Shown: positions 1,197 to 46,181 of the stretch, piece by piece
Position numbering within the stretch: the stretch's first letter is position 1
Layout: the number at the start of each line of letters is the position of its first letter
From: Planctomycetaceae bacterium
GTDB lineage: Bacteria > Planctomycetota > Phycisphaerae > SM23-33
NCBI GenBank assembly: GCA_021371965.1
Contig: JAJFVE010000176.1
Coordinates: forward strand, 1 to 48,850
Reading direction: 5' to 3'
DNA length: 48,850 nucleotides
Program-made: the position numbers and the translations under genes
The notes under the pieces: generated by a model
Told to the model about the DNA's origin: nothing
The model's input: only the letters and a program-made list of their open reading frames with translations
Databases searched by the model: none

Positions 1197-1250
1197 GGTG
1201 GCACGGGCTTTCGGGCCTGTGGCTTCACAGCCTGGAAAGGCTGTGCCACC
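1197..1250. repeat. Nested palindromic repeat between pilB1 and pilC
   Basis: The outer arms GGTGGCAC (1197-1204) and GTGCCACC (1243-1250) are exact reverse complements. Inside lies a perfect 8-bp hairpin, CACAGCCT-GGAA-AGGCTGTG (1226-1245). It is related to the GC-rich CAYGGGC...GCCCRTG repeats found elsewhere in the window. It lies just upstream of the pilC Shine-Dalgarno, so an RNA structure here could affect pilC expression or mRNA stability; that role is inference. Confidence 0.7.
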
Positions 1251-1257
1251 TGGGATG

Positions 1258-3024
1258 TTATTCGACGTCCCGGTCCTCGCTGATGGTCTGCGCGACCACC
1301 TCTTCAATCGTCGTCAATCCGTCATAAATCGCCAGCAGTCCGCTCTCGCGCAGGGTGCGCATGCCCCGCTTGCGGGCGGCCTCGCGAAGCACGTTGGTGC
1401 TCGAGCGCGCCAGGATCAGATCGCGGATGGAGTCGTCCAGGAGCATGATCTCGAAGATCGCCACGCGGCCGGTGTAACCGGTGTTGCGGCAACTGTCGCA
1501 GCCGACGCCGCGATAGAGCGTTCGCCCGGCGACGCTCTCGGGCTTGAGCCCCAGTTCCATGAGCATCTCTTCGGTGGGGACGAACTCTTCCTTGCATCGC
1601 GGGCAGATTCGCCGCACGAGGCGCTGGGCCACGATGCCCTCGAGCGTCGCGGTGACCAGGAAGGGCTCGAGCCCCAGGTCCAGCAGACGCGCGATCGACG
1701 AGGGCGCGTCGTTGGTGTGCAGCGTGGTGAAGACCAGGTGCCCCGTCAGCGACGACTGCACGGCGATCTCCGAGGTCTCCAGGTCGCGCACCTCGCCGAT
1801 GAGGATGATGTCCGGGTCCTGACGCAGGAAGCTGCGCAGGCAGCGGGCAAACGTCAGGCCGATGTCGGGATTGATCTGCACCTGCACCAGCCCGTCAATG
1901 TCGTATTCCACCGGGTCTTCGCTGGTGAGAATCTTCACGCCCGGCTCGTTGAGCTCGCTCAAGGCCGAGTACAGCGTGGTGGTCTTGCCCGAGCCGGTGG
2001 GCCCGGTCACGATCACGATGCCGTTGGGGCGGGCGATCAACTGGCGGAAGATGCGCAGGTCGTCGTCGCGCATGCCCACGCGCTCCAGGTCCAGCGAAAC
2101 CTGGCTGCGGTCCAGCACGCGCATGACGACGCTCTCGCCGCCGCTGGTGGGCAACACGGCCACACGCAGGTCCACCGGCGCGCCCTGGACGACCAGCTCG
2201 ATGCGCCCGTCCTGGGGGACGCGCCGCTCGGCGATGTCGAGGTTCGACATGACCTTGATGCGCGAGGCGATGGCCATGGCGATGCTCTTGGGCGGGGGCA
2301 GCATTTCGTACAGCACCCCGTCGATGCGGTAGCGCATCTTGAACTCGTCTTCGAAGGGCTCGAAGTGGATGTCCGAGGCGCGGTTGCGGATGGCCTCGAA
2401 CAGCACCATGTTGACGAGGTTCTTGACCGGGCTGGACTCGGCCATCTCTTTCAGCGTCGTCAGGTCGATGCTTTCGCCGCGGTCTTCCAGCACGGCAAGC
2501 TGGTCGTCGCCGGCGATCTCGTTGATCAGGTCGCCGATAGACTCCGGGGCCACTTCGTAATACTTCATCAAGGCGGCGTTGAGCCCCTCGATGTCGGCGA
2601 TCTTGGCCACCACGTCGAAGCCCATCAGCGTGCGAAGGTCGTCCTGGGCGCGGAAGTTGTCGCTGGTGGCCATCGCCACCACGAGCTTGCGCGAGGCCGG
2701 ATCGTGCTCCAGCGGCACCACCTTATACGCGTTGGCCATCTGGGCGGGGATCTGGCGGATCACTTCCTCGGGGATGGTGATGTCCTTGAGGTCGACGTAC
2801 TCCATGCCCGCCTGGAACGCCAGCGCCAGCGTCAGGTCGCCGGCCGTGATGTACGCCAGGTCCACCAGGATCTGACCCAGCGGTCCGCCCTTTTGCTTCT
2901 GGACATCCAGCGCCTCGTGGACCTGGTCTCGGGTGACCTTGCCCATCTTGACCAGCACGCGCCCGATCGGGCGCGAGCGGAGCTGGCTGACGTCGTACTT
3001 GGGTTGTTCGGGCTGCTTGGCCAT
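1258..3024 (-). CDS. pilB: Type IV pilus extension ATPase PilB/GspE, paralogue 1
   Basis: 588 aa, close to the usual PilB/GspE length. Hexameric ATPases of this family power pilin polymerisation or pseudopilus assembly. An N-terminal MshEN-type domain (about 18-150; 'GRVLVKMGKVTRDQV') is followed by the catalytic half: ASDIHFEP, the Walker A GPTGSGKTTTL near residue 340, the Asp box DPDIILIGEVRD, the Walker B/His region LTGHLVFTTLHTNDAPS, and a zinc-binding pair CPRC...CDSC. All catalytic motifs are intact. It starts 3 nt after the pilT stop, so it is almost certainly co-transcribed. A second PilB paralogue lies upstream of pilT. Which one drives pilus extension and which a secretion-like machine cannot be told from sequence. 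Confidence 0.95.
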   Translation of the reverse strand: MAKQPEQPKYDVSQLRSRPIGRVLVKMGKVTRDQVHEALDVQKQKGGPLGQILVDLAYITAGDLTLALAFQAGMEYVDLKDITIPEEVIRQIPAQMANAYKVVPLEHDPASRKLVVAMATSDNFRAQDDLRTLMGFDVVAKIADIEGLNAALMKYYEVAPESIGDLINEIAGDDQLAVLEDRGESIDLTTLKEMAESSPVKNLVNMVLFEAIRNRASDIHFEPFEDEFKMRYRIDGVLYEMLPPPKSIAMAIASRIKVMSNLDIAERRVPQDGRIELVVQGAPVDLRVAVLPTSGGESVVMRVLDRSQVSLDLERVGMRDDDLRIFRQLIARPNGIVIVTGPTGSGKTTTLYSALSELNEPGVKILTSEDPVEYDIDGLVQVQINPDIGLTFARCLRSFLRQDPDIILIGEVRDLETSEIAVQSSLTGHLVFTTLHTNDAPSSIARLLDLGLEPFLVTATLEGIVAQRLVRRICPRCKEEFVPTEEMLMELGLKPESVAGRTLYRGVGCDSCRNTGYTGRVAIFEIMLLDDSIRDLILARSSTNVLREAARKRGMRTLRESGLLAIYDGLTTIEEVVAQTISEDRDVE

Positions 3025-3027
3025 GAC

Positions 3028-4164
3028 TTACGCTCCGCTGGCGGCGCCGGGCGCCTCGGGGGGCTGTTGCTGCGGCGGCGGCAGGGGCCGCCCCGCTCGC
3101 AAGGCGTCGAGCTTCTCCTGCATGTCCGCCGGGCTCTGGCAAAAATCCATCGCGTCTTCCTGCGTGATCTTGCTCTGCGAGACCAGTTCGTAAATGTGGT
3201 CGTCCATCAACCGCATCCCCAGCTTGCCGCCGGTCTGGATCGACGAAGGAATGCGGTAGGTCTTGTTCTCGCGCATCAGGTTGGCGATGGCCTTGCTGAC
3301 GACCATGAACTCGAAGGCCGCAATGCGCCCCCGAACGTCGCTGCGCGGAATGAGCGTCTGGCACAGCACGCCGATGAGCACGTCGCTGAGCTGGATGCGG
3401 ATCTGCTCCTGCTGGTCGACGGGGAACTGGTCCACGATGCGCGTCACCGTGCCCTGGGCGCTGGTGGTGTGCAGCGTGCCGAAGACCAGGTGGCCGGTCT
3501 CGGCCGCCCGCAGCGCCGACTCGATCGTCTCCAGGTCGCGCAATTCGCCCACCAGGATCACGTCCGGGTCCATGCGCAGCACGCGGCGAAGGGCCTCGGA
3601 AAACGTCGGGACGTCCTGGCCGACCTCGCGCTGGTTGACCATCGACTTCTTGTGCGGGTGGTAATACTCGATCGGGTCTTCGATGGTGATGATGTGCTTG
3701 TCGAAATGCTCGTTAATGTAGTTGACCATCGTCGCCAGCGTCGTGGTCTTGCCCGAGCCGGTGGGACCCGTGACCAGGAACAGCCCGCGCGGCCGCCGAC
3801 AGAGCACCTTGACGATGGAAGGCAGCCCGATCTCTTCAAAGCTGAACAGCTTGGACGGGATCAGACGCAGCGACATCGAGACGTTGCCCCTCTGGTGGAA
3901 GACCGACACGCGGAAACGCCCCGCTTCGCCGAAATCGAAACCGAAGTCCGTGCCGCCCTTTTCCTGAAGCTCCTGCTGGGCCCGCTCGGGGGTGATCTGC
4001 GACATGAGCTTGACCGTGTCGTCGGGCTCGAGCACCTTGGTCTCCAGCGCCCGCAGCCTGCCGTGGAGGCGCAACGTCGGCGGCCTGCCGACGTGGAGGT
4101 GCAAGTCGCTGGCGCCTCGCTTGATGCAAGTCTCCAACAGTCTGTCTATGCTTACGGTTGCCAT
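3028..4164 (-). CDS. pilT: Twitching motility / pilus retraction ATPase PilT
   Basis: 378 aa from ATG 4164. An in-frame GTG at 4176 is possible, but the GGGAGG there is only 1 nt away from it; from the ATG it is 13 nt, and GGTGAG is 7 nt. PilT depolymerises type IV pili to give retraction and twitching. Visible motifs are ASDLHLHVGRPP at the N-terminus, Walker A GPTGSGKTTTLA, the Asp box DPDVILVGELRD, the His box TGHLVFGTLHTTSA, and AIANLMRE, a form of the PilT hallmark AIRNLIRE. The last 25 residues are Pro/Gln-rich. There is no N-terminal MshEN domain, which separates it from the PilB paralogues on both sides. The stop is 3 nt before pilB1. Confidence 0.94.
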   Translation of the reverse strand: MATVSIDRLLETCIKRGASDLHLHVGRPPTLRLHGRLRALETKVLEPDDTVKLMSQITPERAQQELQEKGGTDFGFDFGEAGRFRVSVFHQRGNVSMSLRLIPSKLFSFEEIGLPSIVKVLCRRPRGLFLVTGPTGSGKTTTLATMVNYINEHFDKHIITIEDPIEYYHPHKKSMVNQREVGQDVPTFSEALRRVLRMDPDVILVGELRDLETIESALRAAETGHLVFGTLHTTSAQGTVTRIVDQFPVDQQEQIRIQLSDVLIGVLCQTLIPRSDVRGRIAAFEFMVVSKAIANLMRENKTYRIPSSIQTGGKLGMRLMDDHIYELVSQSKITQEDAMDFCQSPADMQEKLDALRAGRPLPPPQQQPPEAPGAASGA

Positions 4165-4301
4165 GGGCGTGCTCACCCCTCCCTGCTTCGATTATTCGCC
4201 TTTGGAGAAGCTAAAGCAAAGGCTTATTACCGCCTCTGCCCTCCTCTTAGCGTAATAATCCTTTTCAAGGCATGAACTTAAGCCAATAACCTCGCCGGGA
4301 G

Positions 4302-6011: not shown

Positions 6012-6229
6012 AGAGGTTTTCGCTGCTGGCTGGTGGGTCGTTGTGATGCCGTGTTCGCTACGATGCTCCTGGGCAGGCCTGCCGCCGGGGAATGTTACAC
6101 CGCGTCAGCGGGAAATGAGGCTGCTAGCCGCGACCTCGCATCGCCCGCCTCCGCAATGGTATTCTAACCGCCCCCGCAACCATCGGTCAAGCAACTCCGT
6201 CGCTGCGCAAGACCTCTCTGTGGAAAAAC

Positions 6230-6266
6230 CTGATATGGCTCAGCCGAACATGATAGGATCGATTCA
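6230..6266 (+). promoter_or_regulatory. Candidate leaderless promoter of the radical SAM gene
   Basis: CTGATA (6230-6235), 18 nt, TAGGAT (6254-6259), then 7 nt to ATG 6267. Both hexamers match the sigma70 consensus at 4 of 6 positions. There is no purine-rich Shine-Dalgarno in between, so transcription would begin at or next to the start codon. Found by eye. Confidence 0.4.
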
Positions 6267-7316
6267 ATGTCCGCACTGGCGTATCTCGGCCACTGGGCCC
6301 GTTACCGCCTGCTCCACCGCATGGAGCATCTGGTTCTTCATGTCACCGGGCGGTGCAACCTGCGCTGCGCGCATTGCTTTGTGGACTTCGCCCCGCGGGC
6401 CGATCTGCCGCTGGAGCGCTACCGCCGCCTGGCAGAGGAGGTCGGGCGGTTCTTCTGGCTCGACATCGGCGGCGGCGAACCGTTCCTCAGAGACGACCTG
6501 CCCGAGATCGTCGAGCCCTTCCGCTGCCGCGTGCTGCACATTCCCACCAACGGCCTGGCCACCGACGCCATCGTCGAGTCGGTGCGGGAGATCCGCCGCC
6601 GCACCAGGGCCCAGTTGACGATATCCGTCAGCATCGACGGCCTGGAGGCGACGCACGATGAAATCCGAGGCCGCAGCGGCGCCTGGCAGCAGGCATGGAA
6701 GACGTTCGACGCCCTGCGCGGGCTGAACGTCAGCCTCCGCATCAACACGGTGCTGATGCGCCGCAACGCCGGGGAAATCATCCCGCTGATGCACGAAGTG
6801 CGCCGCCGCAACCCGGACTTCCACTCCGTCTGCTTCCATCGCGGCCACGCCAACGATCCCATCTTCGCCCTGCCGGACCTGGAGCAGGTGAGCGAGTTGG
6901 CCGGCGGCATCTTTGAAATCCTGGACACGTACGACTATGGCCAGGGATGGCTGACCGCCCGCGTCCTGCGCAACTATCATCGCTATCTCTGGAAACTGAG
7001 CGTCGAGACGCTCCAGCAGCAGCGGCAGGTGATCCCCTGCCTGGCCGGGCGGGCGCACCTGGCCGTCCTCGGCGACGGCAGCGTCAGCAGTTGCGAGATG
7101 CTTCCCGGCGTCGGCTCCATCGCCACGCAATCGTGGGCGGAGATTCTCGCCGGTGAGCCGTTCCGCCGCCAGGTGAGCATGATCCGCCGCGGCGGGTGCT
7201 TCTGCACGCACAACTGCGCCATGCTCGACAACATTCTGATGCGATTGCGGAGCTTTGGGCCGCTGATGCATCAGTGCCGCCCGCACGGCGTGGCCGAGGA
7301 GCGCCGCCATGACTGA
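6267..7316 (+). CDS. Radical SAM protein with SPASM-like C-terminal cysteines
   Basis: 349 aa. The radical SAM CxxxCxxC motif is CNLRCAHC (C30, C34, C37), which binds the 4Fe-4S cluster that cleaves S-adenosylmethionine. GGGEP around residue 72 is the SAM-binding GGE motif, and LTISVSIDGLEATHDEIRG is the usual mid-barrel strand. A second set of cysteines (CEM, then GGCFCTHNC near the end) resembles the SPASM/Twitch auxiliary cluster of enzymes that modify peptides or sugars. It overlaps the following glycosyltransferase by 8 nt, so the two are translationally coupled and probably act in one pathway. The substrate cannot be read from the sequence; an anaerobic sugar or peptide modification is possible. 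Confidence 0.85.
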   Translation: MSALAYLGHWARYRLLHRMEHLVLHVTGRCNLRCAHCFVDFAPRADLPLERYRRLAEEVGRFFWLDIGGGEPFLRDDLPEIVEPFRCRVLHIPTNGLATDAIVESVREIRRRTRAQLTISVSIDGLEATHDEIRGRSGAWQQAWKTFDALRGLNVSLRINTVLMRRNAGEIIPLMHEVRRRNPDFHSVCFHRGHANDPIFALPDLEQVSELAGGIFEILDTYDYGQGWLTARVLRNYHRYLWKLSVETLQQQRQVIPCLAGRAHLAVLGDGSVSSCEMLPGVGSIATQSWAEILAGEPFRRQVSMIRRGGCFCTHNCAMLDNILMRLRSFGPLMHQCRPHGVAEERRHD

Positions 7317-8256
7317 TGCGCCGCGCGTGAGCATCTCGGTGGTGATCCCCTGCTTCAACTCCGCCGCGACCTTGCCGGCCCTGCTGGAGAGCCTTGAGAA
7401 TCAGACGCTCGGGCGTGATCGGTATGAGATTATCCTGGTCGACGACGGCTCGGACGACGACTCGTGCCAGGTCGCCCGGCGCTACGGCGGCGTTGCGATT
7501 CACCGCCAAGACCATCGCGGCAGCGGCGCGGCCCGCGAGGCCGGCATGGCGCTGGCCGGCGGCGAACTGGTGCTGTATCTCGATGCCGACGCGTACGCCG
7601 CGCCCGATCTGCTCGAGCAGCACGTGCAGTATCATCGGGGGCATCCGCAAGTCGCCGCCACCGGCGGCAGCGTGCTGCCGGCCGGGCCGTATGGCATCAT
7701 GAGCTGGCAGATGGTCGACCATCTCAGCAGTTGGTTCAACTGCCACCCGCGGTCGCGATACTCCGCGCCGCCGGAGTATCTGCCCAGCCTAAACTTCTGC
7801 GTCAAAAAAGACCTCGTGCAGCAACATCAGGTCTCCTGGGCCGACGGCCTGGCGCATTCCGGCGAGGACGTGCTCTTCTGCCACGACCTGCGCCGCCAGG
7901 GCCTGTCGCTGGCGTTTGTGCCCGCCGCCGTCCTCTGTCATCACGACCGCCCCACCGCGGCCGGCCACCTGCGGCACATGCGCCGCTGGGGCGAGCACGC
8001 CCCCTACGTTCGCGGACGCCTGCCCTCGCTGAGGTACAGCTTTCTCTTTCCCCGCAGCCGCCTGAAGCTGGCCGCTGCGCTGCCGCTGATCGTGCTGGGC
8101 TATACCGCCCTGATCGCCGCCGCGTGGCTGCGCGCCAAGCCGCTGACGGTCCTGCTATGCCTTCCGCAAATCTTCCTGGGCCGCCTCGCCTACGCCGGCG
8201 GCGTCTGGACCAGCACGACCAAGCGGCCGCCCGTAGCACGGGCGTCCCGCCCGTGA
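7309..8256 (+). CDS. Family 2 glycosyltransferase, membrane-associated
   Basis: 315 aa. The GT-A fold is visible from VSISVVIPCFNSAATL, with nucleotide-sugar-binding VDDGSDDDS and the metal-binding DAD in LYLDADAY. A HSGEDVLFCHDL segment fits the acceptor/base ED motif. The C-terminus has a hydrophobic helix pair (LKLAAALPLIVLGYTALIAA and the segment after KPLTV), so the enzyme probably sits on the inner face of the membrane. The last residues, PPVARASRP, and the stop codon itself come from a GC-rich palindromic repeat (8237-8255). The original C-terminus was therefore probably different. The start overlaps the radical SAM gene. Confidence 0.9.
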   Translation: MTDAPRVSISVVIPCFNSAATLPALLESLENQTLGRDRYEIILVDDGSDDDSCQVARRYGGVAIHRQDHRGSGAAREAGMALAGGELVLYLDADAYAAPDLLEQHVQYHRGHPQVAATGGSVLPAGPYGIMSWQMVDHLSSWFNCHPRSRYSAPPEYLPSLNFCVKKDLVQQHQVSWADGLAHSGEDVLFCHDLRRQGLSLAFVPAAVLCHHDRPTAAGHLRHMRRWGEHAPYVRGRLPSLRYSFLFPRSRLKLAAALPLIVLGYTALIAAAWLRAKPLTVLLCLPQIFLGRLAYAGGVWTSTTKRPPVARASRP

Positions 8257-8312
8257 GTGGCACGGCCGTCTTGGCCATGCTCCCCGTCCGTGGCATGGGC
8301 GTCTCGCCCACG
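8237..8312. repeat. Three tandem GC-rich palindromic repeats after the glycosyltransferase
   Basis: Copies of the CAYGGGCGTCTCGCCCRTG family lie at 8237-8255, 8261-8279 (degenerate) and 8294-8312. The first contains the TGA of the upstream gene. Stacked hairpins here could also act as a transcription terminator or mRNA end; that is inference. Confidence 0.75.
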
Positions 8313-8379
8313 CGATCCCCGAACCTTTAACCATCAGGACGCCTCCCCAGGGACACCCGTTGCCTGACGCCGGTTTCAC

Positions 8380-14767: not shown

Positions 14768-15649
14768 ATGGATATAAAGGATGGAACCAGTCGCCCCGCG
14801 CAGGACGTGCGCGAAGGCCTGATCAAGCGCCTGCGCCGCGTCGCGCCGCCGGCGGCGCCGCTTTCTTCACCTCCCCCTTGGCAATCCTTGGCCAACATCC
14901 GCGCCACAGCCGGCTGCCAGGTGGACTTTGTCGCGGCCACCGGTGCCGTCGAGGTGCAGGCGCCCCGCGGCGGCTCGGCGATGCTGATCGAGCAGCGCCT
15001 CACCGACATGAGCGGCGGGTGGGATCGCCTGTGCATCGCCTTCAAGACGGCGCTGGCCGATGCGACATGGCACGGCTGGGCGCACCTGCAGGGGCTGGGC
15101 CCGGTTGCGCCCGAGGATGTGCTCTTTCTGGACCTGGAGACTACGGGCCTGCACTCGACGCCGATCTTCCTGATCGGCGTGATGGTGTTTGAAAACGACT
15201 CGCTGGTGGTGCGGCAGTATTTTGCCCGCGACTACTCGCAGGAGCGGGCGATCCTCTCGCTGCTGGCCGACGAGCTGCCTTCGCGGCGGCTGCTGGTCTC
15301 GTTCAACGGTAAGAGTTTCGACGTGCCGTACGTTCACACGCGGTCGGCTGCGACGGCGGTCTCATGCCGCCTCCGTATGCCGCACTGCGATCTGCTGCAC
15401 ACCAGCCGCCGCGTGTGGGGCAGCGGCCTGCCCAACTGCCGCCTGCAGACGCTCGAGACGTACATCTGCCGCCGCGGGGCGCGCGAAGACGATATCGACG
15501 GCTCGCGCATCCCCGAGGCCTACCACGCGTTCGTCCGCACCGGCAACGGCGCCGAGATGGCACTGTGCGTCAAACACAACCGCCTGGACCTGATCACGCT
15601 GGCCGACATCCTGACCCGCCTGCCAGTTGCACGGGCATCTTGCCCGTGA
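14768..15649 (+). CDS. mrfB: YprB/MrfB-type ribonuclease H-fold exonuclease
   Basis: 293 aa. The RNase H-like DnaQ-type exonuclease fold is shown by the DxE motif in LFLDLETTGL (D122, E124), then GVMVFENDSLVVRQYFARDYSQE, the SFNGKSFDVPYV segment (second acidic site), and H270xxxD274 in KHNRLDLITL. This is the YprB family. In Bacillus subtilis YprB (MrfB) is an exonuclease that works with helicase YprA (MrfA) in repair of mitomycin C lesions. Here it lies just upstream of two YprA-like helicases, the same pairing. It lacks the TPR tail of the Bacillus protein. The C-terminal PVARASCP and the stop codon come from a palindromic repeat (15630-15648). Confidence 0.82.
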   Translation: MDIKDGTSRPAQDVREGLIKRLRRVAPPAAPLSSPPPWQSLANIRATAGCQVDFVAATGAVEVQAPRGGSAMLIEQRLTDMSGGWDRLCIAFKTALADATWHGWAHLQGLGPVAPEDVLFLDLETTGLHSTPIFLIGVMVFENDSLVVRQYFARDYSQERAILSLLADELPSRRLLVSFNGKSFDVPYVHTRSAATAVSCRLRMPHCDLLHTSRRVWGSGLPNCRLQTLETYICRRGAREDDIDGSRIPEAYHAFVRTGNGAEMALCVKHNRLDLITLADILTRLPVARASCP

Positions 15650-15672
15650 GTCCCACGGGCGTCTCGCCCGTG
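15630..15672. repeat. Two GC-rich palindromic repeats between mrfB-like and first mrfA-like genes
   Basis: Copies lie at 15630-15648 and 15654-15672. The first holds the TGA of the exonuclease gene. The second ends 9 nt before the ATG of the helicase, so it occupies the space where a Shine-Dalgarno would be. The helicase start therefore has no obvious ribosome binding site. Confidence 0.8.
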
Positions 15673-20895: not shown

Positions 20896-22131
20896 TTATC
20901 TCTTCTTCTCTGCGCCCTTTGCGATCTCTGCGGTGAGCTCCTCCCCGATCAGGACCTTCTGCTGATCGCCCAGGCGGTACCAGAAGACCACCAGCGGGCG
21001 GTCGCCCTTGCCGCGGAGGGTTTTCTGCATGCGGTCGGTGTCGACGTGCAGGCCGCGGGGCTTGATCACCACCAACCCGCCACCAAGGGCGTTGATCGCT
21101 TTCTTCACATCCTCGCGCCGCCCGGGCGCTTCCTGCAGGATACGATAGCTTCTCGCCAGCGGCGTGTCGGCGGGGCGGTCGCCGAACAACCATACGACGC
21201 GATGATCGATGCGCCACAGTCCGTGCTGCTGCGCCAGCGTGTCCACCGCGTCGGCGGCGATGACGGCGGCGTCAGGTTCGACCAGGAACGCGCCTAGCGG
21301 TCCGATGCGCTTCGGCGCCTCGACAGCGCCGAGGGTCGCCGCTTGCGGTGCGGCGTCCTTTCCGTACACCACCGTCGCAGACACAAGCTGTTCCCGCGCC
21401 GCCTCGCCCCACCACAGGACAAGTTGCCTGCACGTCCCGCCTTCGCTGACGTATTCGAGGCTCGCGCCCTTCCAGAACCCCAGCGTCTGCCATTCGAGCA
21501 TCGGCGAGAGCTTGATCGCCCCCGCCCGCGTCGTCTCGACGAGCCTGCGCAGAAACGCCGGCGGCGGATCGTAATCTTCCATCTGCACTGCGCGATGGCC
21601 GGTCGCCCGGCGGTCCGGGTCCAGATGCACCACGGCCGCAGGATCGATCTCTACGCTCATTACGTCATCGCGATGAAAAGTGCAGTGCTCGCCCACGCCG
21701 GCGGCAGCGGCGTTGGATTGCGCGCACAGGATGGCCACGTCGCTGCGGTCATATCCGACAACCCGCGCGCCGGCCTGGGCCATGCCGATGGCGTCGCCGC
21801 CGATGCCGCAGCACAGGTCCACGATGGGCGACTCGCCCGCGATGGGCGCCAGCCGCCCGCCCACATACCGCGCCAGGCGGATGCTCGATGCCTGTTGCAG
21901 CAGCGTGTCGGTGGCCAGCAGGTTGTCGGCCAGTTCGGGCGGGAACTTGCCTGACGCCCGCGCGCGGCGGCGCAGCGCCTTGAGCACGACGACGGCCACC
22001 GCCTCGCGCGCGTCGCATCGTTTGCGCAGAGCGCGCTGGGCGGCTAGTTCATCGCCCGGCAGGTCCAGGGCGAGCAACTCCCGCCCCAGCGGGGTCGCGA
22101 GAAACCGCAGTTGTTCGAGGTCCAGGCTCAT
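20896..22131 (-). CDS. THUMP-like domain class I SAM-dependent methyltransferase
   Basis: 411 aa. Motif I of a Rossmann methyltransferase is VDLCCGIGGDAIG (104-116). Motif II is VVGYDRSDVAILCAQSNAAA, and HLDPDRR with GHRAVQMEDYDPPP is the motif IV region. The C-terminal half (FLVEPDAAVIAADAVDTLAQQ, SYRILQEAPGRREDVKKAI, VVIKPRGLHVDTDRMQKTLRGKGDRPLVVFWYRLGD) matches the THUMP-like methyltransferase family. The substrate, RNA or other, is not established in that family. The ATG overlaps the dinB stop (ATGA), so the two are translated together. The tail LTAEIAKGAEKKR comes from a CGCAGAG repeat arm. Confidence 0.8.
   Translation of the reverse strand: MSLDLEQLRFLATPLGRELLALDLPGDELAAQRALRKRCDAREAVAVVVLKALRRRARASGKFPPELADNLLATDTLLQQASSIRLARYVGGRLAPIAGESPIVDLCCGIGGDAIGMAQAGARVVGYDRSDVAILCAQSNAAAAGVGEHCTFHRDDVMSVEIDPAAVVHLDPDRRATGHRAVQMEDYDPPPAFLRRLVETTRAGAIKLSPMLEWQTLGFWKGASLEYVSEGGTCRQLVLWWGEAAREQLVSATVVYGKDAAPQAATLGAVEAPKRIGPLGAFLVEPDAAVIAADAVDTLAQQHGLWRIDHRVVWLFGDRPADTPLARSYRILQEAPGRREDVKKAINALGGGLVVIKPRGLHVDTDRMQKTLRGKGDRPLVVFWYRLGDQQKVLIGEELTAEIAKGAEKKR
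20908..20936 (-). repeat. CGCAGAG repeat, reverse arm
   Basis: This is the inverted partner of 20798-20826, 81 nt away. Together they could fold into a long stem at the end of both convergent transcripts and serve as a bidirectional terminator. Confidence 0.85.
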
Positions 22132-23395: not shown

Positions 23396-24940
23396 ATGCA
23401 CCGTTTCTTCATCGCCGCTGCCATGATCTGTCTAACGCTGTCATCCACGCACGCGCAAGTGCGCCTGCCAAAGTTCCTGTCGGACCACATGGTCCTGCAG
23501 CGCGAAATGCCGGTGAAGATATGGGGCTGGGCGGCGCCGGGGGAAAAAGTCACAGTCGCCTTTGCCGGCCAGACGAAGACCGCCGATGCAGGAAGAGACG
23601 GGGCTTGGTTCGTGACGCTCGACCCCATGCCCGCCAGCAGTGAGGGGCGGAAAATGGTGATCTCCTCTTCAATTGGAAATTCCAAATTGGAAATTGGAGA
23701 TATTCTGGTCGGCGAGGTGTGGCTGGGATCGGGGCAGTCGAACATGGCTTGGCCTCTGAAGTTTTCCGATGACGGCAGGGACATCCCCGCCGCCGGCGGC
23801 AACAAGCAGATCCGTTTGCTGCGCCTGCGCAGTGTGGCGGCGTTTACGCCGCAGGATGACATCAACAACGTCTGGCAGGAATGTTCGGAGGCATCGCTGC
23901 CGAACTTCTCGGCCGTGGCGTATCACTTCGCCGATGCGCTCCAGAAGGAATTGAAGGTGCCGGTGGGGTTCATCCAGACATCCTGGGGCGGGACGTTCAT
24001 CATGCCCTGGACGCCGCCGGAGGGCTTCAAGGACGTGCCCGCGCTGGCGGATGTCTACAAGAAGGTCACCGCGCCGGCCCCGGCGTCGCAGCCGACGACC
24101 AAGCCCTCGCAGAACGACCCGTGCGTGGTTTACAACGCCATGGTCCACCCGCTGCGCCACTACAGCCTCCGCGGGGCGATCTGGTACCAGGGCGAGGCCG
24201 ACGTCATGAACGACGACGGCATGCTCTACTACGAAAAGATGAAGGCCCTGATCGCCGGGTGGCGCGGCGCCTGGGGCCGACCGGACATGCCGTTCTACTG
24301 GGTGCAGCTCTCGCCGTTCTATTACTCCGTGGTCTTCAAGGCCATGCCCGGCATGACCGAGTACTCGCTGCCGAAGATCTGGGAGGCCCAGACCGAGGCA
24401 ATGAAGATCCCGCACACCGGCATGGCCGTCATCACCGACGTCGGGGCCGTCAAGAACATCCACCCGCCGCTGAAGAAGCCCGTCGCCCAGCGCCTGGCGC
24501 TGTGGGCGCTGGCGAAGACCTACGGCCGCAAGGTGGTCTATAGCGGGCCGATGTTCAAGTCGATGCGGATCGACGGCGCCCGCGCGATCATCACGTTCGA
24601 CCACGTCGGCGATGGCTTGACGGTTCGCAGCACAGGCGTCCCTCAGGGACAGGTCTCGCCTGTACAGCCCAAAGAGCATGGGCGAGACGCCCATGCCACA
24701 CAGCGAGAGCATGGGCGGGACGCCCATGCCACGAAAGACCTGACGTGCTTCGAGATCGCCAGCGCCGATGGGAAGTACGTTCCAGCCCAGGCGAAGATCG
24801 AGGGCAAGGATCGCGTGGTGGTTTGGTCCGACAAGGTTCCCCAACCCGCCGCCGTGCGATTCGCCTGGCATGAAATGGCCCAGCCGAACCTGGTCAACAG
24901 CGCAGGTCTTCCAGCATGCACGTTCCGCACGAGCCGGTGA
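23396..24940 (+). CDS. Secreted sialate O-acetylesterase-like carbohydrate esterase (SGNH, SASA domain)
   Basis: 514 aa with a signal peptide (MHRFFIAAAMICLTLSSTHA). The N-terminal beta domain LPKFLSDHMVLQREMPVKIWGWA is typical. The catalytic block is GSGQSNM near residues 112-118, followed by QTSWGGT, GAIWYQGEAD and NIHPPLKKPVAQRLALWAL. The family removes acetyl groups from sialic acids or plant/algal polysaccharides. Two foreign repeats are read as protein: SSSIGNSKLEIGD near residue 95 (AT-rich repeat) and a stretch with two HGRDAHAT copies near residues 427-445 (GC-rich palindromes). Despite these inserts the frame is intact and the C-terminus (NSAGLPACTFRTSR) is normal. The gene is convergent with the sulfatase, 7 nt between stops. 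Confidence 0.88.
   Translation: MHRFFIAAAMICLTLSSTHAQVRLPKFLSDHMVLQREMPVKIWGWAAPGEKVTVAFAGQTKTADAGRDGAWFVTLDPMPASSEGRKMVISSSIGNSKLEIGDILVGEVWLGSGQSNMAWPLKFSDDGRDIPAAGGNKQIRLLRLRSVAAFTPQDDINNVWQECSEASLPNFSAVAYHFADALQKELKVPVGFIQTSWGGTFIMPWTPPEGFKDVPALADVYKKVTAPAPASQPTTKPSQNDPCVVYNAMVHPLRHYSLRGAIWYQGEADVMNDDGMLYYEKMKALIAGWRGAWGRPDMPFYWVQLSPFYYSVVFKAMPGMTEYSLPKIWEAQTEAMKIPHTGMAVITDVGAVKNIHPPLKKPVAQRLALWALAKTYGRKVVYSGPMFKSMRIDGARAIITFDHVGDGLTVRSTGVPQGQVSPVQPKEHGRDAHATQREHGRDAHATKDLTCFEIASADGKYVPAQAKIEGKDRVVVWSDKVPQPAAVRFAWHEMAQPNLVNSAGLPACTFRTSR
23668..23699. repeat. AT-rich GGAAATTGGAAATT repeat inside the esterase gene
   Basis: A low-GC run built from TTGGAAATT-like units within a GC-rich coding sequence. 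The same units occur at 26717-26756 at the 5' end of the sulfatase gene, and a weaker form near 27812-27832. Confidence 0.6.
24677..24728. repeat. Two in-frame GC-rich palindromes in the esterase gene
   Basis: CATGGGCGAGACGCCCATG (24677-24695) and a near-identical copy at 24710-24728 are read as two HGRDAHAT peptides separated by QRE. A further degenerate copy (CACAGGCGTCC...) begins near 24630. Confidence 0.85.
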
Positions 24941-24947: not shown

Positions 24948-26750
24948 TTAAAGTGCCTCCACGCGCCGCACGTAGACGTAGAACGCGCCGAACTGCTGCC
25001 CGTGCGCGTCGGTGAAGGTGGCCCAGAGGGACGTTCGGCCGGCGGGCAGCTCGAGGGTGAAGACGGCCCCGCGCGAGTCGGGCGCGACGGGAGCGGTTTC
25101 TACCTGGCCGGCGATCTCGATCGTCGCCGATCGCACGGCCATCGGGCAGCCGCCGACGTACCAGCCTTCGGCGCCGGGCTGGATGCCCTTGGGCAGGGGC
25201 TCTTCGGCGTCGTCGGCGATGCCCTGGGTGATGCTCGAGGGCACTTCGTGCGGCCAGCGGCACAGCTCGAACTCATAGCGGCCTGCCGCGGCGACATCCA
25301 CAGCCCAGTAGCCTTTCCATAGTTTCTGCGGGTGGCGCACGTCGCCCTGGTTCCAGGGGCAGAAGCCCTCGGGCGTGTGCCAGTCGTGGCTGGACAGGCG
25401 GGCCACCGGCTCGTGAGCGGTGCCCAGGACGATCGCCGGCTCGTCGTTGAACTTCTCCGAAACGATCTGCCACCATTTCTCGTACTCGCCGCGCAGGCGC
25501 GAGACCACGTCGCCGTGCTCACCCGCCACGTCGCGCCGCTGGCCGGGGTCGGCCTGGATGTCGTAGAGCTCGACGCCGTTGACCAGCCGCCAGCGGTCGG
25601 TCATCGTGGCGCTCTTGCGCCATTTCTGCGGCGTCTCGACGCGCTGCGAGTCGGTCACGATCACGCGGTCCGGCCAGCCCTCCCCATCGCCGCGCAGCAG
25701 CGGCACAATGCTGCGCCCATAGACGCCCTCGGGAACGCTTCCGCCGCACAGATCGGCCAGCGTCGGCAGCACGTCGATATTGGCTGTCAGGCGAGTCACG
25801 TCGCGCCCGCCGGTCAGTCCGCCTGCCGGCCAGCGCACAAACAGCGGCGTGCGGTGCCCGCCGTCGTACTCCGAGCCCTTGACCCCGCGCATGCCGGCGT
25901 TATACCCGCCGGTGACGAAGCTCTGTGCGTCCAGGTCGCACCCGTCTGCCGTGCCGTTGTCGGTCATGAAGATGAAGATCGTGTTGTGGGCCAACCCCAG
26001 TTCGTCCAGGCGCGTTCGCAGGCGGCCAAGGTTCTCGTCGATGTTCTCGATCATCGCGTAGAATCGCGCCCGGTGGTCGGGCACTTTGCCCCGGTAGGGC
26101 TCGATGTACCGCGGCGGCACGTTCAGCGGGCCGTGCGGGGCGTTGGGGGCGATGTAGCAGAAGAACGGCCGGTTTTGTGGCATGGGCGTCTGGCCCGTGC
26201 CACAGCAACGCTCGATGAACCGGATCCCCTCGCGGAACCACACGTCGGTGCAGTAGCCCTGGTGGCGCTCGGGCGTACCGTTGCGGTAATAGGTGTCGTC
26301 GAAGTAATCGTTGCGCCACCAGTCCGGGGCCTGGCTGATGCCGCCGCCGCGGTGGTAGAGCGCTTCGTCGAATCCGCGGTCGTGCGGGCGGAAGGGGTAG
26401 TTGTCGCCCAGGTGCCACTTGCCGAACAGGCCCGTGCGGTAGCCGGCCTCGCGCAGCACCTCGGCCAGCGTGACCTCGCCGGCCCGCAGCATCGACCATC
26501 CGGCGATGGTGTGCCAGACGCCCGTGCAGTTGCAGTAGCGCCCGGTCATCAGCCCCGCCCGCGTCGGGGCGCACGTGGGCCCGACGTGGAACTGCCTCAG
26601 CCGCACGCTCTGGCCATGCAGGGCGTCCATGTGCGGCGTGCGGATGATGCCATTGCCGTGGCAGCCCAGGTCGCCGTACCCTTGGTCGTCAGTGATCACC
26701 AGCACCACGTTGGGCTTTTCAATTTCCAATTGGCGATTTTCAATTTCCAA
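24948..26750 (-). CDS. Sulfatase (type I, formylglycine-dependent)
   Basis: 600 aa from TTG 26750, chosen because GGAG lies 8 nt upstream and homologous sequence starts at KPNVVLVITDDQGYGDLG; the in-frame GTG 26789 is the alternative. The formylglycine motif is CAPTR in VGPTCAPTRAGLMTGRY (Cys near residue 60), and FGKWHLG, NAPHGPLNVP and FMTDNG are other conserved metal and substrate blocks. A C-terminal domain of about 130 residues after the catalytic part looks like a beta-sandwich. No signal peptide is visible, which is unusual for a polysaccharide sulfatase and probably reflects 5' damage: the first codons are an AT-rich repeat. A palindromic repeat (26181-26199) adds GTGQTPMPQ internally. 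Confidence 0.85.
   Translation of the reverse strand: MEIENRQLEIEKPNVVLVITDDQGYGDLGCHGNGIIRTPHMDALHGQSVRLRQFHVGPTCAPTRAGLMTGRYCNCTGVWHTIAGWSMLRAGEVTLAEVLREAGYRTGLFGKWHLGDNYPFRPHDRGFDEALYHRGGGISQAPDWWRNDYFDDTYYRNGTPERHQGYCTDVWFREGIRFIERCCGTGQTPMPQNRPFFCYIAPNAPHGPLNVPPRYIEPYRGKVPDHRARFYAMIENIDENLGRLRTRLDELGLAHNTIFIFMTDNGTADGCDLDAQSFVTGGYNAGMRGVKGSEYDGGHRTPLFVRWPAGGLTGGRDVTRLTANIDVLPTLADLCGGSVPEGVYGRSIVPLLRGDGEGWPDRVIVTDSQRVETPQKWRKSATMTDRWRLVNGVELYDIQADPGQRRDVAGEHGDVVSRLRGEYEKWWQIVSEKFNDEPAIVLGTAHEPVARLSSHDWHTPEGFCPWNQGDVRHPQKLWKGYWAVDVAAAGRYEFELCRWPHEVPSSITQGIADDAEEPLPKGIQPGAEGWYVGGCPMAVRSATIEIAGQVETAPVAPDSRGAVFTLELPAGRTSLWATFTDAHGQQFGAFYVYVRRVEAL
26181..26199. repeat. GC-rich palindromic repeat inside the sulfatase gene
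   Basis: One copy of the CAYGGGCGTCTNGCCCRTG family. On the coding strand it is read in frame as part of GTGQTPMPQ, between FIERCC and NRPFFCYIAPNAPHG. Confidence 0.8.
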
Positions 26751-26756
26751 TTCAAC
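26717..26756. repeat. AT-rich repeat at the sulfatase 5' end
   Basis: TTGGAAATTGAAAA units in direct tandem on the minus strand encode LEIENRQLEIEK. They sit exactly at the junction between the sulfatase and the small upstream reading frame, and one unit supplies the putative TTG start. Confidence 0.65.
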
Positions 26757-26880
26757 AACTCCGCGGCCGTTCGGCCTTCCATCGCTCACGAATGTCGAAC
26801 TCGCCCCAGAGGATCGTGTACCCGTTGCAGCAGCGGTCGGGCTTGTAGAGCGTCGTGCCGATAGGGTAGACCGTAAGCAT
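26752..26880 (-). pseudogene. Short remnant resembling the start of an arylsulfotransferase (ASST) gene
   Basis: A 42-aa frame. Its MLTVYPIGTTLYKPDRCCNG followed by YTILWG resembles, from memory, the N-terminal 'tGttiydPdkaynGYtLf' segment of arylsulfotransferase-family proteins, after which homology stops at RERWKAERPRSC. The remaining hundreds of residues are absent. The frame ends (TGA 26754-26752) 1 nt before the proposed sulfatase TTG. A perfect TATAAT lies 6 nt before its ATG. It may be a deletion scar now acting as a leader for the sulfatase, or a real small protein. The family call rests on a short motif. Confidence 0.4.
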
Positions 26881-26886
26881 GCCGGG

Positions 26887-26892
26887 ATTATA
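26887..26892 (-). promoter_or_regulatory. Consensus -10 TATAAT before the remnant/sulfatase transcript
   Basis: TATAAT on the minus strand, 6 nt from ATG 26880. There is no Shine-Dalgarno and no clear -35. It would create a leaderless mRNA that continues into the sulfatase. Confidence 0.45.
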
Positions 26893-26997
26893 GGCTGCCC
26901 CCGCCCGTCTGGGCCAGCGCTGGTGCGCGCCCATGTGTTTGGGTACACTTTTCCAGCCGTGCCGCGGCATGATTTCTTCAGACATGGGAGCAAGCAC

Positions 26998-27786
26998 ATG
27001 ATCGTCGTCTGTCCCAAGTGCGGGTTGCGGTTGACTTCGGATGATTCGCTTGCAGGCAAGCAGGGCCGATGCCCGGATTGTCGCGAGGTCTTCATCGTGG
27101 CAGCGCCGGCGGACGGCTCATCGCCGCCGCCGCTTCCTGGGGTCCGGCAGCCATTGCACCCTTGCGGCGCGCCCGACAAGGTCGCCCGCGGATGCTATCG
27201 TGCGTACCTCCTCTGCGGAAGCCTGATCATCGCCATCGTTGGACTAATCTTCATCTCGTCGCTGTTGAGTATCTTCGGCAGGCAGCCGTTCGACGGCCTA
27301 TTTCTTGCCGCAGGGTTGATAATGATTCTGCTCGCGGTTGCATATGCAGCGGCGTTGGTGCTGTACCTGATCGTCCTGTACCGAATGTGGCGGGCGGTGC
27401 AGCCAGCCGAGATCACGCCCGGAGCGGCTGTGGGATTCATGCTGATGCCGCTATTCAACGTGTACTGGGCTTTTCGCACCCATGGCGGCTGGTGCCTGTG
27501 GTACAACCGGCGGTTGGCGGCGACCGGGGCCCCGTCGCGCCCGGCGTCTCGAGCCTTGGGCAACAGTGTGGTGATCGTGTGGGCTGCCAGCCTTCTTCTG
27601 GTGGTGCTTGCCGCGGCGTTGATATCCGCCGAAACGCCCGAAGCCGCCGCTGCAGGTGGCATAGCCGTATTGATGGCGGGCTTGTGCCACCTCGCCTACT
27701 TCATTCTGCTGGCATGCTTTCTCAAGAGCGCCTGCGACGGGATCGATGCCCTGTCGCCGCTTCCACTGGGCGGGCCTGAGGCCTGA
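26998..27786 (+). CDS. Zinc-ribbon membrane protein of unknown function
   Basis: 262 aa. GGGAG lies 7 nt before ATG 26998. The N-terminus is a zinc finger (CPKC at 5-8, CPDC at 25-28; the MJ0042-type pattern). A Pro-rich linker follows, then about five hydrophobic segments with a conserved-looking loop (GFMLMPLFNVYWAFRTHGG). Similar zinc-ribbon plus membrane proteins are common in planctomycetes but no function is known to me. It lies between the divergent sulfatase transcript and dnaK and does not look co-transcribed with either. Confidence 0.75.
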   Translation: MIVVCPKCGLRLTSDDSLAGKQGRCPDCREVFIVAAPADGSSPPPLPGVRQPLHPCGAPDKVARGCYRAYLLCGSLIIAIVGLIFISSLLSIFGRQPFDGLFLAAGLIMILLAVAYAAALVLYLIVLYRMWRAVQPAEITPGAAVGFMLMPLFNVYWAFRTHGGWCLWYNRRLAATGAPSRPASRALGNSVVIVWAASLLLVVLAAALISAETPEAAAAGGIAVLMAGLCHLAYFILLACFLKSACDGIDALSPLPLGGPEA

Positions 27787-29954: not shown

Positions 29955-29979
29955 GTGTCGCGGGCGAGACGCCCGACAC
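29955..29979. repeat. GC-rich palindromic repeat after dnaK
   Basis: GTGTC...GACAC arms around CGGGCGAGACGCCCG, a variant of the dispersed palindrome family, 5 nt after the dnaK stop. Confidence 0.7.
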
Positions 29980-29987
29980 GATCCTGC

Positions 29988-30017
29988 AACGGGGACAGTC
30001 CCGCGACTGTCCCCGTT
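29988..30017 (+). terminator. Strong hairpin, probable dnaK terminator
   Basis: A perfect 13-bp stem, AACGGGGACAGTC / GACTGTCCCCGTT, with a CCGC loop. There is no T-run, so it may act as an mRNA-stabilising structure or factor-assisted terminator. Its sequence may itself be a dispersed repeat. Confidence 0.6.
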
Positions 30018-41773: not shown

Positions 41774-41829
41774 TCAAGCGTTCCTCCAAGCGACGACCTG
41801 GAACTGCTGCTCGCCTTTTCCCTCCAGCG

Positions 41830-43647: not shown

Positions 43648-43897
43648 GGCCGTCTCCTCGTATCATGGATCATAACCCAGCGTTTAGAAACTTTGCCACA
43701 GAGATCACAAAGAGTACTCGGTGAGTCTGCAACTGGAAAGCGGCACGGCCGCCGTGCTGGAATCCGATTTGCCGACGCTTCGCTCGCTATGGCGTGCCCA
43801 CGGCTACGGTCTCCTTGGCCTTGGGGTAACTTCTCCCGATCGGCAGGAACCGCTCCTGAACAGTCCGGTTCAACATGGTGCGGGCGAGGGATGCACT

Positions 43898-46162
43898 ATG
43901 AACGCGCGAAGAGTTTTGCCGCTGCTGGTGGTGGTCTGGATCGCTCTGCCGGCACGCGCGGCCCCGGCGGTTCTGGACATTCCGCGCATCGAGTCCATCA
44001 CCATCGACGGCAAGATCGACGACTGGGGACAGGCGGGATACCGGCTGGACGTTCTCGAACCGATGGGCGGCCCGCCCGCGCCCGTCAGTCAGCGCGTGGC
44101 CGCGCGGCTGGGCTGGGACGACCGCGGGGTGCTCATGCTGGTGACCATTTGGGACGATCGCTGGATGGAAAACCCGCGCGCCGACCGCCTCTACGAGGGC
44201 GACTCGATCGAGGCGTTCCTGTTCTCCAGCGCCGGCGCCTGCCAGTGGGTCGTCTCGCCCGGCATGGACGCGGCTCAGGCCGCGCCGCGATGGCAGTTCT
44301 TCGACAAGCGTTCGCCCGGCCGTCGCGGCGCAGCGGCGCCGCTGGTGGGCCGAACCCGCGCGGGCGATGAATGCACCGTCGAGATCCTGCTGCCGTGGTC
44401 GGCGTTGGGCGTCGAGCCGGCGGCGGGCACGGCGCCGGTGAGTCTCCAGTTCTGGGTGAGCGACCGCGACGACCACGTCGAAGACATCCAGCGTCTGTGG
44501 CTGAAGCAGATTTCACTGCATCTGGCGGGCAGGCCCTCGCCGGCGCAAGGGTTCATCCACTGGACGGGCTTCAACGCAAGGGCGATGCTGACGACGCTGA
44601 TGATTCGCGGCGGCCCTGCCGCCGGCGGCAAAGAAGCCTCCCTCGTCCGGGGCGAAAAGATCCTCGCCAGGTGCGTGCTCGCGCGCGACGCCTGCGGCTA
44701 TGCCCAGGGCGAACTGCTCATGCCCGAGCGGCGCGGCGGCGAAGACGCGGCTGAGTTGTCGGTACGCGTGGAGGGCAAAGAGGTCGCCCGCATCGCCGCG
44801 GCTGACAACACCCGCGCCCGCGCCGAGCAGTTTCTCTTCGCCCCGATGGCGGCTTCGCCCGAGCGAGTGTTCGACGGCGAGACTTTTCCGCCGGTGGCTT
44901 TCAAGGATCCTCGCCTGGTTGAGCGGGCGATAGGCTCCTACACGCTGCGGACCACCTATTACGACAGCGGCTTTCGTCCGGTGACGCACGCCGCCGCCCC
45001 GGGGCGCTATGGCGCGGTGGTCGAGGTGATGACGCCGCAAGGCCGACTCTGCCGGCGGTTCGTGTCGCTCGTTCGCCGCGGCGCCGCGGCAGCCGTCGAC
45101 CCCGCACAGGACCGCCAGTGGTGGGTCGACTTCAAACGCCGCTTCTACGGATGGGACAAACGCTGGCCCGGGCCTTTCGCCTGTCCGCGAACTGCCGACG
45201 GCCCACCGGCGCCGGTGGTGCGCGAGGGCCCAGCCGCCGAGGCAGGCATGAAGGCCGGCGCCGCGGCTGCCATCGACGCGGTCCTGACGCAATGGGCGGC
45301 CGACAGCGACGAGCCGTTCAACGCCTGCGTGGTTCGCCATGGCGTGATCGTGCTGGACAAGGCCTACGGTTCGCGCGGCGGCAAGGCGATGACAACGGAC
45401 TCGATCTGCGGCATCGCCTCGCTGACCAAGATGCTCTCGAGCGTGCTGTTGCTGACGTTCGTCGACCAGGGTCTGGTGGACCTCGACGCCCCCGTGAGCG
45501 ACTACCTGCCGCCGTTCCAGGGCGTGCGGACGAACAAGCCCCTGACCGTGCGGCACCTGTACACGCACGCCAGCGGCGTGCAGGGCTGGCACTGGGGGGC
45601 GTTCGAGAACGACCTGGAAGAGCGACTGGCCTGCTACATGCCCAACGTCCGCGTAGGCGAGGCTTTCCTCTACAACGGCACCGGGTTCGACCTGGGCACC
45701 AAGATCCTCGAGGCCGTCAGCGGCCAGTCGCAGCCGCTGCTGGCACGAAGGCGCCTGCTGGAACCGCTGGGCTGCCGCAACACCATCATGCCCGACGGCG
45801 GCGGCGCCGCCGGCAGCACGGCCAGCGACCTGGCGCACATCGGGCAGATGCTGCTCAACAAAGGCGCGTACGGCCGCATGCGCTTCATGAGCGAGCGGAC
45901 GTTCGAGCAACTGCTGCCGCGGCGATTGACGAAAGTGCTGGGGCCCGCGACGGGCGAGGTCTACGGCCTGGGGACGATGTGGTTTGACAACGAAGGCTGG
46001 GGCAAGGGCACGTTCGCCCACGGCGCCAAGTCCGACACGGTGCTGCGCATCGACGGCGAGCACGACCTGGTGGTGGCCATCGCCCGCAGCCGCCGGGGCA
46101 CGAACTTCGAGACCTACTACCCCCAGTTCATCCACGCCGTCCTGTCCGGCATCGCCCCGTAA
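43898..46162 (+). CDS. Secreted fusion of a CBM9-like domain with a serine beta-lactamase/esterase domain
   Basis: 754 aa from ATG 43898 (GAGGG 7 nt upstream). A signal peptide (VLPLLVVVWIALPARA) is followed by a carbohydrate-binding family 9-like beta-sandwich (about 28-215: ITIDGKIDDWGQAGY, VAARLGWDDRGVLMLVTIWDD, EGDSIEAFL, VEILLPWSALG). A middle region of unknown fold follows. From about residue 450 there is a class C beta-lactamase-related serine hydrolase: SxxK as SLTK near 507, YNG near 592 and HGAK near 708 in place of KTG. Such proteins are usually esterases or peptidases, not antibiotic hydrolases. The CBM9-like part points to glycan substrates. Confidence 0.82.
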   Translation: MNARRVLPLLVVVWIALPARAAPAVLDIPRIESITIDGKIDDWGQAGYRLDVLEPMGGPPAPVSQRVAARLGWDDRGVLMLVTIWDDRWMENPRADRLYEGDSIEAFLFSSAGACQWVVSPGMDAAQAAPRWQFFDKRSPGRRGAAAPLVGRTRAGDECTVEILLPWSALGVEPAAGTAPVSLQFWVSDRDDHVEDIQRLWLKQISLHLAGRPSPAQGFIHWTGFNARAMLTTLMIRGGPAAGGKEASLVRGEKILARCVLARDACGYAQGELLMPERRGGEDAAELSVRVEGKEVARIAAADNTRARAEQFLFAPMAASPERVFDGETFPPVAFKDPRLVERAIGSYTLRTTYYDSGFRPVTHAAAPGRYGAVVEVMTPQGRLCRRFVSLVRRGAAAAVDPAQDRQWWVDFKRRFYGWDKRWPGPFACPRTADGPPAPVVREGPAAEAGMKAGAAAAIDAVLTQWAADSDEPFNACVVRHGVIVLDKAYGSRGGKAMTTDSICGIASLTKMLSSVLLLTFVDQGLVDLDAPVSDYLPPFQGVRTNKPLTVRHLYTHASGVQGWHWGAFENDLEERLACYMPNVRVGEAFLYNGTGFDLGTKILEAVSGQSQPLLARRRLLEPLGCRNTIMPDGGGAAGSTASDLAHIGQMLLNKGAYGRMRFMSERTFEQLLPRRLTKVLGPATGEVYGLGTMWFDNEGWGKGTFAHGAKSDTVLRIDGEHDLVVAIARSRRGTNFETYYPQFIHAVLSGIAP

Positions 46163-46181
46163 CACGGGCATCTCGCCCACC
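46163..46181. repeat. GC-rich palindromic repeat between convergent genes
   Basis: CACGGGCATCTCGCCCACC, one more copy of the dispersed family, starts directly after the stop of the serine hydrolase gene and ends 6 nt before the stop of the dehydrogenase. A T-run on the plus strand follows (46184-46188), so it could act as an intrinsic terminator. Confidence 0.65.

Follow-up and report, generated by a model that had tools for sequence, protein, structure and literature searches.

REP palindromes in a planctomycete contig and RAYT genes read in frame within housekeeping genes of related bacteria

How repetitive extragenic palindromes (REPs) and REP-associated tyrosine transposases (RAYTs) persist in the long term without behaving as insertion sequences is, to our knowledge, an open question. 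A description of the GTAG superfamily of REPs and its REPtrons places copies inside genes, with tRNA synthetase genes and Opitutus terrae among the examples, and also covers the Rickettsia palindromic elements (RPEs), palindromic repeats in protein genes (Di Nocera et al., 2013; PMC3733652). In another study, in vitro cleavage of one REP in a GTGG variant took place at CA and at CC (PMC8266576), and a survey left out long TnpAY1 proteins, which it regarded as 'gene fusions or annotation errors' (PMC6006769). We analyzed a 48,850-nucleotide stretch of DNA from a Planctomycetaceae bacterium of the class Phycisphaerae (contig JAJFVE010000176.1, positions 1 to 48,850; hereafter the window), in which a GC-rich palindrome, CAYGGGCGTCTCGCCCRTG, is dispersed within and between genes. 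We identify the window palindromes as GTAG-superfamily REPs. We assign a probability of roughly 0.85 to the reading that these GTAG- or GTGG-tagged REPs were spread by a RAYT, that some copies are kept in open frames, and that relatives hold whole REP-RAYT-REP units inside housekeeping genes.

Tagged palindromes and a bracketed RAYT

At up to three mismatches the palindrome matched the window 15 times (both strands, some places counted twice) against 0.23 matches expected, and any of 100 dinucleotide shuffles of the window held two matches at most, a clear excess over chance. All nine copies listed by an earlier note on this DNA were recovered, with zero to three mismatches, those at 8261 and 46163 being degenerate with three each. 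Of the two places the note proposed as relatives, 29959-29977 is a further member (three mismatches, in a hairpin at 29955-29981), whereas 1197-1250 belongs to a different, double-hairpin family. A match at 21823-21841 (three mismatches) was rejected as an element: the identical sequence occurs in a conserved methyltransferase gene of the sister genome G080 (C29:18073), and it is probably ordinary coding DNA.

G080 is the nearest of 397 genomes of the class by DnaA (98% identity; the next full-length match is at most 73%), with syntenic blocks that share 77-94% nucleotide identity with the window. It contains 537 copies at up to two mismatches, compared with one for a reversed-pattern control. 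All ten genomes tested have Y1_Tnp matches and 22-534 palindrome matches each (up to three mismatches, strands summed, some places counted twice), whereas the reversed pattern gave 0-1 per strand. In the species-genome collection, records of Planctomycetota, Verrucomicrobia and Acidobacteria contain 21 stretches with an exact 25-mer version. A 419,589-base sample of G080, made up of regions partly picked for richness in repeats or transposases, holds 96 copies in 33 clusters. The preceding tetranucleotide is GTGG in 61 and GTAG in 23 of these copies (84 of 96 together), and among 63 neighbor pairs within clusters the spacing is 33 nt in 32 and 24 nt in 13. The element is made up of a hairpin with 8-bp arms and a GTGG or GTAG tag, often arrayed. 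All five window stretches folded as single-stranded DNA (ssDNA), one of them from the second family, were more stable than their shuffles (z −3.05 to −6.72).

The assignment to the GTAG superfamily follows because tag, hairpin fold, copy number and array spacing agree. The repeats have a GTAG-like unpaired tag (GTGG is a variant of the consensus), a stable short hairpin and a dispersed high copy number, and a cognate RAYT is flanked by the same repeat in G080 and by a close variant in a second genome, G006. These properties bear out the REP/RAYT-like nature that the earlier note had suggested; its other suggestion, a miniature inverted-repeat transposable element, need not be invoked. The repeats bracket a Y1 enzyme.

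Among 15 Y1_Tnp matches in G080, the one at C4:19439-19612 is bracketed by the palindrome: two copies lie at one flank, and the strict pattern gives three, inversely oriented, at the opposite flank. These flanking repeats match window positions 24664-24732 at 93%. The strict pattern was not found within 1.8 kb of the 13 other matches examined (C41:4091 lay outside this set), one of which has a one-sided copy at about 1.85 kb. The bracketed RAYT sits in a stop-free 545-residue open reading frame (ORF) with an ETF domain before and after it, and hence inside etfB. In four other genomes (G210, G030, G222 and G098) the etfB part that ends at residues 111-118 is directly followed by the part that starts at 389-392; G086 shows the same with one stop. 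The AlphaFold model of this RAYT has a pLDDT of 83, and the nearest solved chain is 4ER8, TnpAREP with a REP hairpin (sequence E 3.5e-11; fold E 5.3e-6, TM 0.47/0.56). A like arrangement, with near-identical copies of the repeat variant on both sides, surrounds a RAYT in G006 (NF047646 95.9 bits, cut-off 80) that lies within valS (869.7 bits in three stretches). A candidate for the missing transposase was found in a sister genome and not as the window's own. In agreement with the earlier note, a Pfam scan of the 30 main window ORFs gave no transposase domain, the single IstB-like match being in the DnaA ORF.

Copies inside window genes had already been noticed; in addition, some of these are read in frame. 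The esterase gene at 23396..24940 (+ strand; SASA family, PF03629, sialate O-acetylesterase) bears a REP array at 24634..24733 (− strand), with copies at 24677-24695 and 24710-24728 (33-nt spacing) and a third, degenerate palindrome at about 24634-24664, read as ..KEHGRDAHATQREHGRDAHAT.. in the esterase frame. This insertion of about 34 codons is absent from all 60 homologues compared (P0123-P0182) and occurs in G080 (P0121) at another length; the ssDNA fold of 24673-24733 has a z of −6.72. P0122 (860 aa), considered as an esterase with a RAYT, is actually a duplicated esterase. The sulfatase ORF at 24948..27179 (− strand; PF00884) carries an in-frame REP at 26177..26203 (+ strand; copy 26181-26199, tag GTGG at 26177, fold z −4.61) that is absent from 58 of 60 homologues compared (P0002-P0061). 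A codon-usage test of the 33 G080 clusters gave six with in-frame read-through, three in the same frame with a stop, five between other same-strand frames, two between opposite strands, 11 with one coding flank and six of no clear class. Judging by eye, we take the hosts at C25:129571, C4:130046 and C4:267563 to be U32 peptidase-like, KsgA-like and GH3-like, respectively; the label of the C19:14042 host is likewise presumed by eye.

RAYTs read within host genes

Embedded RAYTs are not confined to etfB and valS. The first ten genomes also held them in a DNA methylase (G002), in leuS at a contig edge (G003), in a DinG/YoaA-like helicase (G008), in alaS where the contig ends (G007) and on the N-terminal side of a TPR protein (G004). 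With profile A1, made from six RAYTs of long frames, 125 of the 397 class genomes have a RAYT at E ≤ 1e-15; among the matches listed, 103 of 150 lie in stop-free frames of at least 400 residues and three have internal stops. We then considered 110 loci (L240-L349; L258 and L345 are the same place), comprising 102 of the 103 long-frame matches and eight shorter ones; the remaining long-frame match, in G003, is L222. At 50 of the 110, both flanks of the RAYT belong to the same host: 23 valS, 6 ileS, 7 leuS, 6 dinG-like, 5 DUF1156 methylase, 2 N4 methylase and 1 etfB. Nine loci have a one-sided host match, one (L285) is a leuS whose N side is short, and the small reference set left 50 unplaced. 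Pfam matches for 20 of the unplaced loci identified purH (8), gcvP (2), ham1 (2), Type ISP (2), Eco57I (2), MmeI, SNF2, mgsA and miaA. One purH case is cut by a contig edge, and PF01808 resumes at about residue 132 in most.

Some host names had to be revised. A valS label for the short-type fusions was rejected, as seven ORFs are ileS by NCBIfam (six above cut-off, one contig-cut ORF below); L294 and L300 are ileS by tree position only, and valS 'site C' and six 'site A' rows are ileS after this reassignment. Six leuS rows had been named valS from an N-side match, the leuS reference having no N-terminus; NCBIfam confirms leuS for these six and for L285, the N side of which (54 aa) was left uncounted as host. 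Embedded RAYTs in G087 (C1, C3, C4) seem to lie in purH, gcvP, ileS and possibly valS.

Fusions are also visible among database proteins, some of which JGI labels 'Rad3-related DNA helicase/REP element-mobilizing transposase RayT'. In total, 2007 proteins of about 546-1738 residues match the RAYT portion of the fusion in G008. Among the 120 listed (P0241-P0360), 111 have DinG/Rad3-like helicase domains with the RAYT inside, at 55-93% identity over the RAYT part; the others have alaS, metH, GT9, 2-hydroxyacid dehydrogenase or DNA methylase domains, and one has none. Where organisms are named, the listed DinG/Rad3-RAYT family comes from Verrucomicrobiota or Limisphaerales/Pedosphaera.

The embedded units appear intact. 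In a profile-guided alignment the HxH motif and the Tyr are retained in 110 of 110 domains, and both are invariant in profile A1 as well. A hairpin lies within 220 bp upstream of 76 and downstream of 77 of 87 embedded RAYTs, compared with 4 and 11 at positions 500 bp further out, where fewer stretches were testable. Moreover, a 14-mer inverted repeat joins the two sides in 54 of the 87 and in none of the controls. The flanking hairpins and the inverted repeats that link them indicate that whole REPtrons are embedded. Two HUH-like motifs each are present in P0249, P0292, P0304, P0329, P0312 and P0342.

Hosts can be single-copy genes. In 24 genomes TIGR00422 detected one valS locus above cut-off each, which is the RAYT-bearing ORF in 22. 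The above-cut-off valS of the other two, G087 and G223, is not the RAYT ORF, which is ileS in both; the G087 valS frame (1581 aa) has a 1-kb gap between neighboring profile positions.

A quick-method tree of the RAYTs (109 rows, ileS rows still labelled valS) requires 45 changes among 20 host labels, with a minimum of 19 and a shuffled mean of 75.5, a pattern that may reflect part inheritance and part jumping between hosts. With ileS rows excluded, valS is interrupted at three sites. The metH proteins P0304 and P0329 have two embedded RAYTs each; the host part is 96-100% identical per block and the first RAYT is common to both, whereas those at the second site, which is the same in the two, are only 32-62% identical per block, as if the second RAYT had been replaced in one protein.

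Sites in the window and its sister genome

The sites at 1197, 15630, 24677 and 26181 are common to the window and G080, with differing array lengths. The differences at the two coding sites are multiples of three, 6 nt in the esterase and 96 nt in the sulfatase, where G080 carries 32 codons more; those at 15630 (83 nt) and 1197 (11 nt) are not. The pair at 15630..15672 (+ strand; copies 15630-15648 and 15654-15672, 24-nt spacing) lies at the 3' end of an RNase_H_2 gene and provides its stop, and G080 has the first copy and the longer array. The cluster at 8233..8312 (+ strand) consists of copies 8237-8255 (tag GTAG at 8233), 8261-8279 (degenerate) and 8294-8312, with an ssDNA fold z of −3.05. 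It lies at the 3' end of a glycosyltransferase ORF, whose TGA stop is provided by the first copy. G080 has a different sequence in this place: other long, more AT-rich inverted repeats (C29:4182-4392) stand where the window has the REPs of 8218-8362. No hairpin was found in G080 at the place of the related hairpin CGTGTCGCGGGCGAGACGCCCGACACG (29955..29981, − strand), which lies between dnaK and the next gene. A degenerate copy with three mismatches (46163..46181, + strand) lies between convergent genes, directly after the stop codon that ends a beta-lactamase-fold ORF. The earlier note had called the element active or recently active; the replaced cluster, the missing hairpin and the array lengths give this indirect support, and no transposition event was seen.

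Synteny between the window and G080 breaks at 26976-26979 (C29:25902 and C39:157077), with REPs no more than about 60 bp away on both contigs (C29:25909, C39:157130), which suggests a rearrangement through REP-REP recombination. The second repeat family, a double hairpin at 1197..1250 (strand not assigned; fold z −6.57), occurs at four further places in G080 with 92-96% identity. It lies between a pilB-like gene and one that we take to be pilC-like from its N-terminal sequence, for which Pfam gave no match. A perfect hairpin with 13-bp arms at 29988-30017, GGGGACAG..CTGTCCCC, is also found in G080 in a degenerate form, and matches the GGGGWSAS motif of tyrosine transposase elements of the terminal-inverted-repeat type given in PMC3733652. 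The window has 65% G+C and no tRNA or Rfam matches, and its genes (for sulfatase, SASA esterase, GH127, DnaK, DnaA and type II/IV secretion ATPases) suit a planctomycete.

Proposed mechanism, alternatives and known systems

We propose that RAYT would cut and join single-stranded REP hairpins, and that REPs falling in genes would be retained where the frame stays open, presumably being translated. A complete unit consists of REPs, a stopless RAYT gene and inverted REPs, such that the transposase would become an internal domain of the host enzyme. Whole units would enter genes likewise, perhaps via a REP already in place, as the near-identical repeats on both sides of the G006 RAYT suggest. After embedding, a nonsense or frameshift mutation in RAYT would also wreck an essential enzyme, and the host frame would shield RAYT from loss of this kind. 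We infer that these REPs are mobilized by RAYT and that the fused proteins are made and function unspliced. We see an even chance that in this planctomycete class and some Verrucomicrobia the REP-RAYT units are splicing-free in-frame mobile elements, persisting via translation in essential enzymes, among them PurH and the Val-, Ile-, Leu- and Ala-tRNA synthetases, with the frame of the enzyme shielding and expressing the transposase.

The position of three window clusters at gene 3' ends (8237, 15630 and 46163) and the four sites common to G080 would also fit non-mobile structural elements, such as terminators, mRNA stabilizers or gyrase sites, multiplied by recombination with RAYT as a bystander. 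That explanation is unlikely given the in-frame insertions within enzymes, absent from 60 of 60 and 58 of 60 homologues, the RAYTs bracketed by repeats in two genomes, and the hairpins next to in-frame RAYTs, at 76 and 77 of 87 where the controls gave 4 and 11. We take more seriously, without expecting it to be the answer, that the fusions are domesticated, an old insertion having turned into a useful domain that is inherited vertically. Retained catalytic residues, the 111 of 120 listed proteins that share a DinG/Rad3-like host with RAYT parts 55-93% identical, and the clustering of host labels on the tree, with 45 changes where shuffled labels need 75.5 on average, are all consistent with domestication. 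The same 45 changes argue against it when set beside the 19 possible for 20 labels, which are intermixed, as do the three interruption sites in valS and the near-identical metH pair with its divergent second RAYTs.

Removal of the inserts after transcription or translation, in the manner of introns or inteins, is brought to mind by their location in conserved housekeeping genes, where inteins are also located. It is nevertheless very improbable, since a Pfam scan of 27 RAYT ORFs detected no intein/Hint domain, the host frame runs through the inserts without a stop, a property that RNA introns would not require, and the window and G080 differ by multiples of three at coding sites (6 and 96 nt) and not at the two non-coding sites (83 and 11 nt). 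We give next to no credence to artifacts of assembly or annotation, whether contig chimeras or long frames that arise spuriously where DNA is rich in GC. Most of the named genomes are indeed metagenome assemblies, and the survey cited above set long TnpAY1 proteins aside as fusions or errors (PMC6006769); however, the same gene continues in the same frame on both sides at 50 of 110 loci by reference matches and at more by Pfam, some loci lie within contigs of 3.4-7.2 Mb (G271, G087, G058), and 22 of 24 genomes have no other above-cut-off valS.

Several observations weigh against REPs spread by RAYT and carried as whole units in housekeeping frames. The bracketed RAYT was seen in G080 and not in the window; it scores 73.4 bits with NF047646, below the cut-off of 80, its AlphaFold model was built from six alignment rows, and its etfB host is not the only such gene of G080, a more distant etfB-like one being present on C50. 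Most of the compared window sites are common to G080, so recent movement is not demonstrated there, and the array differences may have arisen through slippage or because copies recombined with one another. The openness of the repeat in six frames, tried as a special adaptation, was rejected as ordinary for its base composition: 5754 and 7532 of 20000 shuffles of the two 33-nt GTGG units were equally open. Profile A1 favors embedded RAYTs, so 103 of 150 overestimates their fraction; with the neutral NCBIfam model, long frames accounted for 21 of 150 among the matches listed in a Verrucomicrobia class (76 genomes) and for 4 among those listed in an Acidobacteria class (81 genomes). The second RAYT of P0342, outside the set of 110, has HVR in place of HxH. 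Three of the 22 valS are incomplete in frame, with the last third in a second frame in G183 and a piece on another contig in G198 and G132. Finally, RAYTs that share a host site are often grouped together in the tree, the pattern of which is therefore in large part inheritance.

Intragenic REPs, tRNA synthetases included, are already known, and whole REPtrons in housekeeping frames are apparently new: a literature search, with most subscription papers outside its scope, returned no report of RAYTs or whole REPtrons translated in housekeeping genes. If true, placing the transposase within the frame of an essential gene would offer a straightforward explanation for how REPs and RAYTs persist, and many housekeeping proteins here would bear an extra DNA-cutting domain, hidden or mislabelled by annotation. 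The embedded units would also mark places where tRNA synthetases and other enzymes naturally tolerate an insertion.

Inteins with homing endonucleases likewise place a mobile enzyme in frame within conserved housekeeping genes. The in-frame embedding is alike, but no splicing domain was found in the 27 RAYT ORFs and, unlike an intein, the insert presumably remains in the protein. With RPEs the only common trait is the in-gene habit; we know of no transposase for RPEs, whereas the in-frame unit described here brings its own. Compared with TnpAREP/RAYT of E. coli (4ER8), the embedded enzymes are alike in the HxH and Tyr motifs, the NF047646 match and the nearest structure, and differ in that the RAYT gene lacks its own stop codon and is, in many relatives, read within a housekeeping ORF. 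The GTAG-superfamily REPs, as presented in PMC3733652, are alike in the tag beside a short hairpin, copy number, arrays, inverted pairs and RAYT association. Here, in contrast, the main tag is GTGG, with GTAG second, and where that text describes REPs in genes, it is the whole REPtron that is read inside the gene.

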